Part shown: positions 17,255 through 45,432 of the stretch, piece by piece
How the letters are laid out: each line of letters begins with the position of its first letter
Numbering within the stretch: position 1 is the first letter of the stretch
NCBI RefSeq assembly: GCF_002019645.1
Contig: NZ_KV917374.1
Span: forward strand, 3,670,696-3,734,695
DNA: 64,000 bases
Source of the DNA: Litchfieldia alkalitelluris
Lineage (GTDB): Bacteria; Bacillota; Bacilli; Bacillales; Bacillaceae_L
Direction: 5' to 3'
Notes under the pieces: generated by a model
Databases searched by the model: none
The model's input: only the letters and a program-made list of their open reading frames with translations
What the model was told of the DNA's origin: nothing
Position numbers and translations under genes: made by a program

Positions 17255-17325
17255 AACAGCACACTAAAAAGAGTACTGAATCTCCTTAGTTTTTTTAAGA
17301 GGGTAGCTAAAAACCTCTACCGCTT
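17255..17325 (-). promoter_or_regulatory. preQ1-I riboswitch with terminator-type expression platform
   Basis: The minus strand from 17319 reads AGAGGTTTTTAGCTACCCTCTT then an A run and ACTAA, matching the preQ1-I aptamer: stem AGAGG/CCTCT, the C-rich loop, and the A-rich 3' tail that folds back as an H-type pseudoknot. The tail end ACTAAGGAG can instead pair with CTCTTTTTAGT just downstream (to about 17263), followed by T-rich sequence. Ligand binding would choose between these folds and stop transcription before the VUT gene. A CCGC/GCGG hairpin at 17318-17330 precedes the aptamer. Confidence 0.9.
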
Positions 17326-42935: not shown

Positions 42936-43090
42936 TGTATCATCTCCTTGTTCAATTGAATTCGTGTGAATTTAATTTAGGTTCGAAATAATTATATAAT
43001 TCATTTATATAGGTTACCATAATTTTCTATCTGTATTTTTGAAAAGGATACTTTTAGATGGGTGATTTCCATATATCTACCCTGAAAAAC

Positions 43091-43216
43091 GAAAAGCGGA
43101 AGGCGCTCGATCATCGGCGACAGGCATAAGGCGAGACTGCTAGAAGGTTGTTCTTTAACCTTCTAGGGTGGATTGACTTAGACCTGAGAGCCGATAGCGC
43201 CTGGAGCTAGACACTA
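43091..43216 (+). repeat. R2 palindromic repeat, copy b
   Basis: GGAAGGCGCTCGATCATCGG at the start and AGCCGATAGCGCCTGGAGC at the end form the outer stem; CTAGAAGGTT/AACCTTCTAG forms the inner hairpin. Followed by an R3 palindrome at about 43235-43280. Confidence 0.8.
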
Positions 43217-43285
43217 AGCTAAGTATAATTTTTCATACTCCATGGTGCGAAATACTTATTTAGCATGGATGTCTACCCTGAAAAA

Positions 43286-43415
43286 AGAAATGCGGAAGGC
43301 GCTCGTTCATCGGCGACAGGCATAAGACAAGACGGCTAGAAGGTTGCTCTTTAACCTTCTAGGGTGGATTGACTTAGACCTGAGAGCCGATAGCGCCTGG
43401 AGCTAGACACTAAGC
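43286..43415 (+). repeat. R2 palindromic repeat, copy c
   Basis: Same structure as copy b, in direct orientation and 70 bp downstream of it, followed by another R3 (about 43430-43475). Confidence 0.8.
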
Positions 43416-43479
43416 TAAGTATAATTTTTCATCCTCCATGGTGCTAATTTTAATTAGCATAGAAGTCTACCCTGAAAAT

Positions 43480-43546
43480 AACATTGGTTGTGGAGTTCCA
43501 TGAGCTGCGATCCACCTGCTTTCCGCGGGGTGGTCCGTGAGCCTCC
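43480..43546 (-). repeat. R1 palindromic repeat, 5' half (copy E) cut by the IS110 element
   Basis: Runs GTGGAGTTCCATGAGCTGCG...GGTGGTCCGTGAGCCTCC and then stops against the insertion sequence. Contains CCACCTG (43512-43518) and TGGTC (43531-43535). Confidence 0.85.
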
Positions 43547-43734
43547 CTCTATAAATGTTGCTATATCAACGCTTCAAAGAGCTTTTAGCTCTTTAAAAAA
43601 ATATTTTCAGTTAGATAACTATCTTAAAAGTGTATTAATATTACATATTTACATAACTATGGTAACTACAAGATACGCTTCGCTAGAGTCAATTGGTATA
43701 AATTGACATAGAATCTTATGTGATGCACTATGGA

Positions 43735-43925
43735 TCTCTGCGAATCTTATGACGACGTACCCTCCCATGTCTCTTGGCGTCAAGCGCGTACATTCCTTCG
43801 TTCGGTCTTTTCATAAGGCAGAGGCTGGCGGTGCTCCTCGGGGGACTCATGGTCTAATGGCTCGTTTGTTGCCGGCTTCTCCGTGTCATCCTAATGTCAA
43901 AAGTAATAACTAGAAAATGAAAAGC
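43735..43925 (-). ncRNA. Candidate bridge RNA of the IS110-family element
   Basis: On the minus strand, read 5' to 3' just after the transposase stop, are two stem-loops. The first has CGAGGAG (43840-43834) and AGCCTC (43826-43821), which match the right half (CTCCTCG, complement) and left half (GAGCCTC, identity) of the interrupted target. The second has AGGAATG (43797-43791) and GGGAG (43766-43762), which match the joined element ends AGGAATG (45305-45311) and CTCCC (43543-43547). This is what target- and donor-binding loops of an IS110 bridge RNA should look like. Exact RNA ends are unknown. Confidence 0.65.
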
Positions 43926-45203
43926 TTAAGCTGCCCCTTCGAGGCAAGAGAGGTCGTTCATCATACTTGTATGACTAAAATATATCTTCTTTTTACTTAG
44001 CGCGTGAACAATCTTTAATAACTTACAACAGAGTACTACCATGGCTTCTTTTTTCCTAAGAGGATTGATCCTCCTGGTCGTGTAATACTTATACATTGAT
44101 TTAAATGCCGAATTATGTTGTATAAGTGGGAGGATTACCCGGAATAGAATAGCTCTTAGCTTCTTCCTCCCCCGCTTAGAAATCTTTTTTTGACCTTTAT
44201 GTTGTCCAGATGAATTCTCACGTAATGTTAGTCCCGCTAGTTTAATAATTTGGCGTGGATGCTCATAATGCGTGGGGGAACCCATCTCTGATAATAGTTC
44301 TACAACTGTGTTTTCGCCAATCCCTGGAACTGACAAAATGTATTCATACTCAGCTAGCTGTGCTGCCAATTCACGTAACCTTTCTGAAAGTTCATCGAAT
44401 TGTTGAGAGAGTAGGTTAAACTGAGACATTAAAGTGGCAATCTCATAACGGGCCATCTGTAATCCCTCTGTTAAGCCTATGGACTCTTCAGATACAATCA
44501 ATAATTCATTAACCTTACCTTTCGGTACACATTTAAGGTAATCTACTGTTCGATATAATTCTACTAGCTCATGAATTTCTTTCCCTTTAACATCACTTGG
44601 TAGAGGTGACTTTTCTAGTACCGCACAAGCTGTTTTACCTAGTTTCTTAAAGACTAGATGGAACTCTGGGAAAAAGCGATCAATCCAACGAATAATGCGA
44701 TTTCTAAGAGCGGAAAGATCTTCTTGGATCTTTGACCTTAAAGACGCTCCATTTCGGAGCTCTGCTTCAATACCTTCTAAGATTCGAGGGTAACTAAACC
44801 TTCCATCACGAACCAACTGAGCGATAACACGGGCATCCTTTTTATCATTTTTGGTTTGTAGATTGTCATCTAGCTCTTTTGTTCTGTTTACATGTAAGGG
44901 ATTAACCATTACAAAACGAATGCCTAAATTAACTAAATAAGAGGCAAGATTCATCCAATAGTGTCCTGTTGGTTCAAAACCAATAATCAATTCTGATTTA
45001 TCGTGTTTCTCTTGTAGAGAGACGATTGTGCTGTGTAAATAATCAAAGTCATGACGAGCATTCATAAAAGCAAATGACTTTTGTAACACACGCCCTCGGT
45101 CATCGATAGCGCATGCGTAATGTTTATTCTTAGCAATATCAATTCCAACAACTAAGGTATTTTCAGATACTTGATTAATTTTATAATTCATATTACGATT
45201 CAT
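43926..45203 (-). CDS. IS110-family transposase/recombinase
   Basis: 425 residues. N-terminal RuvC-like DEDD domain: Asp in VVGIDIAKNKH near residue 19, Glu in IIGFEPTGHYW near 71, Asp pair in KNDKKDARVIAQLV near 120; central coiled coil near 250-285; C-terminal Transposase_20 domain with VPGIGENTVVELLSEMG near 308 and the serine in LRENSSGQHKGQK near 346. Both catalytic parts are intact, so the element may still be active. ATG 45203 follows AGGAGG by seven bases; the frame extends 15 codons further without a site. Confidence 0.95.
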   Translation of the reverse strand: MNRNMNYKINQVSENTLVVGIDIAKNKHYACAIDDRGRVLQKSFAFMNARHDFDYLHSTIVSLQEKHDKSELIIGFEPTGHYWMNLASYLVNLGIRFVMVNPLHVNRTKELDDNLQTKNDKKDARVIAQLVRDGRFSYPRILEGIEAELRNGASLRSKIQEDLSALRNRIIRWIDRFFPEFHLVFKKLGKTACAVLEKSPLPSDVKGKEIHELVELYRTVDYLKCVPKGKVNELLIVSEESIGLTEGLQMARYEIATLMSQFNLLSQQFDELSERLRELAAQLAEYEYILSVPGIGENTVVELLSEMGSPTHYEHPRQIIKLAGLTLRENSSGQHKGQKKISKRGRKKLRAILFRVILPLIQHNSAFKSMYKYYTTRRINPLRKKEAMVVLCCKLLKIVHALSKKKIYFSHTSMMNDLSCLEGAA

Positions 45204-45311
45204 AAGTAGTCCTCCTACATGGTAATGAGTCAATTTGGTCGTTGACACTCATGCATCATATATGAGGGCTATTTTTTTTTCAAGTACCTTTAAAGTTATA
45301 AAACAGGAATG

Positions 45312-45432
45312 CTCCTCGTCGCCAGGGGCGGGCTCCTGTGGGGTCTCACGAGACCACTGGATCCCGCAGTCAAGTGGCTCTCCGCTCATTCCACACTTAG
45401 TAAGTACACTATTTTCATTCTCCATGTACGAA
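45312..45432 (-). repeat. R1 palindromic repeat, 3' half (copy F) on the far side of the IS110 element
   Basis: Resumes at CTCCTCGTCGCCAGGGGCGG and continues to CCGCTCATTCCACACTTAG. Contains GACCA (45352-45356), complementary to TGGTC of copy E, but CAAGTGG (45371-45377), which mismatches copy E's CCACCTG at one position. Confidence 0.85.

Follow-up and report, generated by a model that had tools for sequence, protein, structure and literature searches.

An IS110-family element located at 43543–45311 on the minus strand of a 64,000-nt stretch of Litchfieldia alkalitelluris DNA (the window) very probably carries, downstream of its transposase gene, a two-loop bridge RNA with target and donor guides as mapped here. 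A reading of the 3′ noncoding region as bridge RNA had been put forward in a first-pass annotation made from the sequence alone. It is strongly supported by covariation of guides with targets, a covarying fold and the presence of an IS110 transposase. Sequence comparison adds some co-change of guides with element ends and two identical element copies at the same position of a repeat; transcription, a circle intermediate, RNA binding and catalysis are what we infer.

In the proposed mechanism, the bridge RNA would fold into two stem-enclosed loops. Once the element's ends are joined in a circle, the donor loop would recognize both of them, its 5′ arm AGGAATG pairing with the left end CATTCCT and its 3′ arm GGGAG matching the right end GAGGGAG. 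Guided by the RNA, the recombinase would bring target and circle junction together, and strand exchange at a shared AG (or GGAG) core would insert the element without a longer duplication.

The element is 1769 bp in length and displays the left end CATTCCTG (45311 downwards) and a right end terminating in GAGGGAG (to 43543). The genome has two identical copies, each inserted at the identical position within a dispersed palindromic repeat, and identity between the two loci extends 26 and 13 nt past the element ends into the repeat on the two sides. The junction reads, in order, left flank ..CGACGAGGAG, element CATTCC...GAGGGAG and right flank GCTCACGG, and an unoccupied repeat copy in the window has the sequence CGACGAGGAGGCTCACGG. 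The element ends and target junction are thus as described at first pass. Both targets are in the repeat on the minus strand, the left target CGAGGAG at 45312–45318 and the right target GCTCACGG at 43535–43542. Insertion is at a shared short core and without a longer target duplication, the exact cut being ambiguous by up to 4 nt because GGAG is common to the left flank and the right end.

The target repeat is an imperfect palindrome of ∼160 bp. With a window copy as query, there are 74 matches in the genome at E ≤ 1e-15, partial ones counted, and this copy folds better than shuffled sequences as single-stranded DNA (z −4.5). Copies in the window are found at ∼8340, ∼8561, ∼16516, ∼28394 and about 43480–43542/45312–45400, the last split by the element. 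A second repeat, detected by eye beside the element, is present as two very similar copies at ∼43060–43240 and ∼43280–43470 (CGGAAGGCGCTCG...GCCTGGAGCTAGACAC).

The transposase (recombinase) gene at 43926–45248, on the minus strand, is intact and encodes 440 amino acids. The translated sequence displays domains PF01548 (E 4.1e-36) and PF02371 (E 2.7e-22), by which it is classed as an IS110-family protein, and scores 226.9 bits against NF033542 (NCBIfam, IS110 RNA-guided transposase), for which the cut-off is 140. Noncoding DNA comprises 383 nt after the gene and 63 nt before it, and the RNA is in the downstream stretch. At the left end, a consensus scan detects a promoter-like sequence, TTGAAA-17-TATGAT, at 45255–45283 (minus strand) with 10 of 12 matches; the site is weak alone, and the scan returns 6 sites in the region compared with 4.7 in shuffles.

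Relatives of the RNA are abundant. A scan of genome contigs for related transposases, in which the best 80 of 103 were kept, gave 79 loci, and in many of the relatives reaching past the gene the start of a conserved ∼170-nt block is found 3′ of it. The block-start pattern matched 42 sequences, including the window and a few chance matches; in more diverged relatives the block is present in altered form. Covariance model R1 was built from an alignment of 36 sequences, and the conserved extent of the window RNA in this 36-row alignment is about 43722–43888 (minus strand), although the true transcript ends may differ. At E ≤ 1e-8, R1 hits are present in 120 of the 396 genomes searched within the order; at E ≤ 1e-6, 78 of the 398 genomes in a class-wide sample, which overlaps the order set, contain the block. 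A further 80 stretches were chosen by hand among the matches listed for the order-wide search with R1. Together with the earlier loci these gave 198 RNA hits; after removal of three window-element copies and of one hit lacking ends, 194 elements remain, with 128 unique RNAs, which were aligned. Usable flanks, one per unique RNA, number 111 on the left and 121 on the right. The Rfam collection has no match between 43000 and 45500 at E ≤ 1. At gathering score its only two matches in the whole window are elsewhere and none is to the bridge RNA: a BsrC sRNA at 1490–1576 (74.6 bits) and a PreQ1 riboswitch at 17280–17323 (39.3 bits, at threshold).

RNAalifold, applied to the 36 rows, predicts 25 pairs, of which 17 show at least one compensatory change, and misses the P1 stem. 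P1 and the other helices were counted by script on profile-aligned rows of 98 representatives (<97% identical), and six helices exceed both slid and row-shuffled controls. The cells are paired in 90% of cases for P1, 97% for the target-loop cap, 95% for P2a, 97% for P2b, 99% for P3 and 98% for the donor-loop cap; cells changed on both sides number 62, 81, 88, 113, 74 and 57, in the same order. The predicted layout has a first loop enclosed by P1 and a second enclosed by P2 and P3. On the minus strand of the window, the 5′ strand of P1 (GCCGGC) is at 43871–43876 with its partner at 43824–43829, and the hairpin capping the target loop (GAC..GTC) is at 43844–43854. The 5′ strands of P2 (CTCTGC, CTTATGA) are at 43811–43823, the hairpin capping the donor loop (GCG..CGC) is at 43777–43787, and the 3′ strands of P3 and P2 are at 43736–43756. 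Folding of the window RNA as a single sequence gives no advantage over shuffles (z 0.15), and P1 is absent from the best fold.

The first-pass annotation had placed four short guide matches in the two loops. All four are present on the minus strand, CGAGGAG at 43840–43834, AGCCTC at 43826–43821, AGGAATG at 43797–43791 and GGGAG at 43766–43762, but AGCCTC is not in a loop. When the 378-nt noncoding region was resampled 20,000 times under a first-order Markov model, no resample contained all four (single motifs occurred at rates of 2.1% for CGAGGAG, 5.9% for AGCCTC, 2.1% for AGGAATG and 10.9% for GGGAG), although the comparison gives only a rough indication because the motifs were chosen after the fact.

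The left-target guide CGAGGAG, in the 3′ arm of the target loop at 43834–43840 (minus strand), is predicted to pair with the bottom strand of the left target, and the assignment made at first pass is confirmed by covariation with the left flank. In a floating register, the guide and the left flank share at least 5 nt in 98 of 111 unique RNAs, where 41.2 are expected (z 18.3). When RNA columns are compared one by one with 20 flank positions, the best same-sense diagonal aligns columns 49–53 (CGAGG) with target positions −7 to −3, with a mean z of 11.5 against a background standard deviation of 0.88. The best complementary diagonal aligns columns 25–29 (CGAGC) with positions +2 to +6 at a mean z of 3.9, and a second register one base off reaches 3.8. 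Position by position this right-arm signal is modest, as an unrelated diagonal reaches 3.5. In a floating register, however, the 5′ arm has a match of at least 5 nt to the complement of the right flank in 58 of 121 unique RNAs, with 16.5 expected (z 12.5). Controls with the wrong strand or the wrong segment give z values from −2.4 to 0.3. Examples are L242, whose arm TATTTTTATAC is found with the right flank TATAAAAATT, and L078, with arm GCGAGAC and flank TCTCGC.

By this covariation the true right-target guide is GAGCC at 43859–43863 (minus strand), in the 5′ arm of the target loop and ∼37 nt upstream of AGCCTC; it is predicted to pair with the top strand G|GCTC. The guide in the window comprises just 5 nt and the next base is mismatched, while close relatives have TGAGCC there. 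A bridge RNA in which AGCCTC serves as the right-target guide and guide order differs between the loops is very improbable. AGCCTC does have the longer match, a 6-nt complement of GAG|GCT compared with the 5 nt of GAGCC, but it fails to follow the right targets: a match of at least 5 nt is found in 1 of 121 unique RNAs, with 3.4 expected (z 1.1), values within clusters are −0.4 to 1.1, and the best diagonal over the segment has a mean z of 1.9. The columns of its CTC part vary little whatever the target. The segment is instead within two covarying stems, 43824–43829 being the 3′ strand of P1 and 43821–43823 the start of P2; in the window copy, the A of AGCCTC faces a C in P1, a mismatch. Covariation of loop sequence with insertion site across homologues, which had been suggested as a check, thus holds for CGAGGAG (z 18.3) and fails for AGCCTC. 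With GAGCC as the right-target guide, the right guide precedes the left guide in each loop, and the reversed order reported for the first loop is no longer an anomaly; the contrast between loops arose because the wrong segment had been picked.

It might be argued that the matches are by-products of common ancestry, in which related elements, related RNAs and related repeats are simply found together, and many relatives do share targets (the repeat, GTTAG/TTTAG and Shine-Dalgarno classes). Such an explanation has a negligible probability. Swaps of targets within clusters of 80–90% scaffold identity, which are a partial remedy for swap tests made without a full tree, leave z values of 14.2–16.2 for the left guide and 8.5–10.9 for the right arm, compared with −2.4 to 1.1 for control segments. 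Among relatives whose sites are Shine-Dalgarno-like, the right-arm signal is weak, with 8 matches in 32 where 5.0 are expected (z 1.7), whereas the left guide retains significance (z 5.2). Five elements (L211, L218, L219, L220 and L226) have a different cap and scaffold, yet their guides are CGAGGAG/TGAGGAG and GAGC/AAGC. Their sites are alike, with right flank GCTC and, where available, left flank CGAGGAG; they possibly represent independent retargeting.

Alternatively, the RNA might control expression of the transposase, a role suggested for the Ssr9 RNA of ISPpu9, with the guide matches being secondary. In the available text on this IS110-family element, a downstream sense sRNA is reported to act on an antisense RNA (PMC8450116). 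A pure transposase regulator does not predict loop arms that co-change with flanking host DNA, as those found here do, and regulation as the primary role is very unlikely.

The bridge-RNA reading also predicts guides for the element's own ends. The right-donor guide AGGAATG, in the 5′ arm of the donor loop at 43791–43797 (minus strand), would pair with the left end CATTCCT, and the left-donor guide GGGAG, in the 3′ arm at 43762–43766 (minus strand), has the same sense as the right end GAGGGAG. In the comparison a right end is available for 187 rows and a left end for 166. Both guides, AGGAATG and GGGAG, and the ends CATTCCT and GAGGGAG are conserved together. Co-changes are found in three elements, where an AGGACTG guide occurs with a CAGTCCT end, and in seven of eight rows with a GAGAG guide, where the right end is also GAGAG (the eighth, L105, is mis-called). 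There are exceptions: a GGGAATG guide is found with CATTCCC in three elements and with CATTCCT in four, and 27 of 28 AATT-type right-donor guides face a CATTCCT end with one mismatch. Donor variation is under-sampled in these counts because a score matrix trained on ends of the family was used to place them; apparent mis-calls (the left end in L116, L203 and L229, the right end in L105) were left in the tables. The few co-changes support the first-pass choice of AGGAATG and GGGAG as donor guides, which is probably right. As the co-changes are few and there are exceptions, the donor guides are less firmly established than the target guides. The loops of this noncoding RNA thus covary with both target and donor, on the donor side through few changes and with some exceptions.

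Landing sites of the relatives point to a core and to a preferred class of targets. In 168 of 171 elements the left target has AG as its final two bases, and AG is therefore the likely core. Outside the GCTC and TC classes, GGAG-type left flanks are found at 58 distinct insertions, and in 42 of these a start codon that opens at least 30 codons lies 4–13 nt downstream (25 ATG, 14 TTG and 3 GTG), most commonly at +9; when the position is shifted by 20 nt as a control, the count is 11. Many relatives therefore insert at ribosome-binding sites. For other targets, a start codon is found in 12 of 87, with 11 in the control. The right end GAGGGAG is followed by G in 46 of 63 Shine-Dalgarno-site elements; end and target base therefore rebuild a Shine-Dalgarno-like sequence before the gene, which may affect its expression. 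In relatives such as L084, L134, L135, L165 and L171, insertion is between the Shine-Dalgarno sequence and the start codon, and the element is codirectional with the reading frame. In a single genome (G004), one relative is represented by sixteen loci (L035 and L039–L053) with left target GATAAGAAAG and, at those loci whose sequence extends past the right end, right target TATAAAA. IS900, a mycobacterial IS110-family element, inserts between the Shine-Dalgarno sequence and the start codon, as do many relatives here; a literature search found no paper stating this of IS900.

The mechanism is a known one, and these elements seem to be a distinct variant in the way that recombinase type, RNA side and guide order are combined. 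There is perhaps an even chance that these elements represent a large, unmodelled class of Bacillota bridge RNAs, in which an IS110-type recombinase is combined with an IS1111-type RNA (downstream, and right then left in both loops) and many members are programmed for Shine-Dalgarno landing, the right end GAGGGAG and the target G rebuilding the ribosome-binding site. If such a class exists, guide order would follow the side of the RNA and not the recombinase lineage, and models of how the recombinase reads the loops must allow both layouts for one recombinase type. A mobile element that rebuilds the ribosome-binding site upon landing would thereby have a simple means of sparing the gene behind it. 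The 128 unique RNAs, most with flanks, form a natural data set for reading the pairing code of IS110-type bridge RNAs in the IS1111 arrangement. The corrected right-target guide is also of practical concern, as AGCCTC would have misdirected an assay to the wrong segment.

The transposase matches IS110-family proteins of 395–398 aa over about 390–440 aa; proteins of 338–341 aa, which we take to be IS1111, are matched more weakly. The agreement with the IS1111 group seen at first pass extends to RNA location and guide order, as the RNA is downstream of the transposase gene and the top-strand guide is 5′ of the bottom-strand guide. It does not extend to the transposase, which comprises 440 aa in place of 330–350 aa without a long variable region, nor to the subterminal inverted repeats of 7–17 bp. 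In 104 elements, inverted matches of at least 7 are found in 2 within the outer 30 nt (2.5 expected) and in 8 within the outer 40 nt (5.9 expected). Within the outer 60 nt they are found in 40, with 15.8 expected, the commonest being A-rich runs. Assignment to IS1111 proper is rejected on the length of the transposase and the lack of IS1111-type subterminal repeats. The features of the narrow IS110 group, an RNA upstream of the transposase gene and a bottom-strand (left) guide first, are not found here either.

In a literature search by title and abstract beginning, mostly of journals without subscription, none described this RNA or element family. Of the systems described, the IS1111-family seekRNA elements ISEc11, ISPa11 and ISKpn4 resemble the window element in having the RNA downstream of the transposase gene and the top-strand match before the bottom-strand match. 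In the available text of PMC11187229, IS1111 elements have the top-strand match first, whereas it is last in the one IS110 element tested. The seekRNA elements differ from the window element in their 330–350-aa transposases and subterminal inverted repeats, and the same text describes target matches only for seekRNA, whereas donor guides are also proposed here. The ‘green group’ of IS110-type elements, as far as the text describing Fig. 1b of PMC11187229 allows a comparison, shares the IS110-type transposase and a downstream noncoding region. ISPpu9, in the part of PMC8450116 available, is likewise of the IS110 family, with a palindromic-repeat target, AG at the junction and a sense sRNA, Ssr9, downstream of the transposase gene; it differs in that Ssr9 has been studied there as a regulator.

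For IS621, guides can be compared within the accessible portions of PMC11208160 and PMC11208158. Its guides read left then right (LTG 50–58 and RTG 77–80; LDG 123–130 and RDG 157–165; PMC11208158), whereas both loops here read right then left. In the IS621 group the RNA is mostly in the left end, the IS621 core is CT and the recombinase comprises 328 aa, in contrast to a downstream RNA, a probable AG core and 440 aa in the window element. The two systems nevertheless have in common a related recombinase (PDB 8wt6, E 8e-14) and a two-loop RNA, with each loop carrying one guide for the bottom left strand and one for the top right strand. In both, the core is common to target and donor, and the target is a repetitive palindrome (REP in the case of IS621, according to the title of a cited paper).
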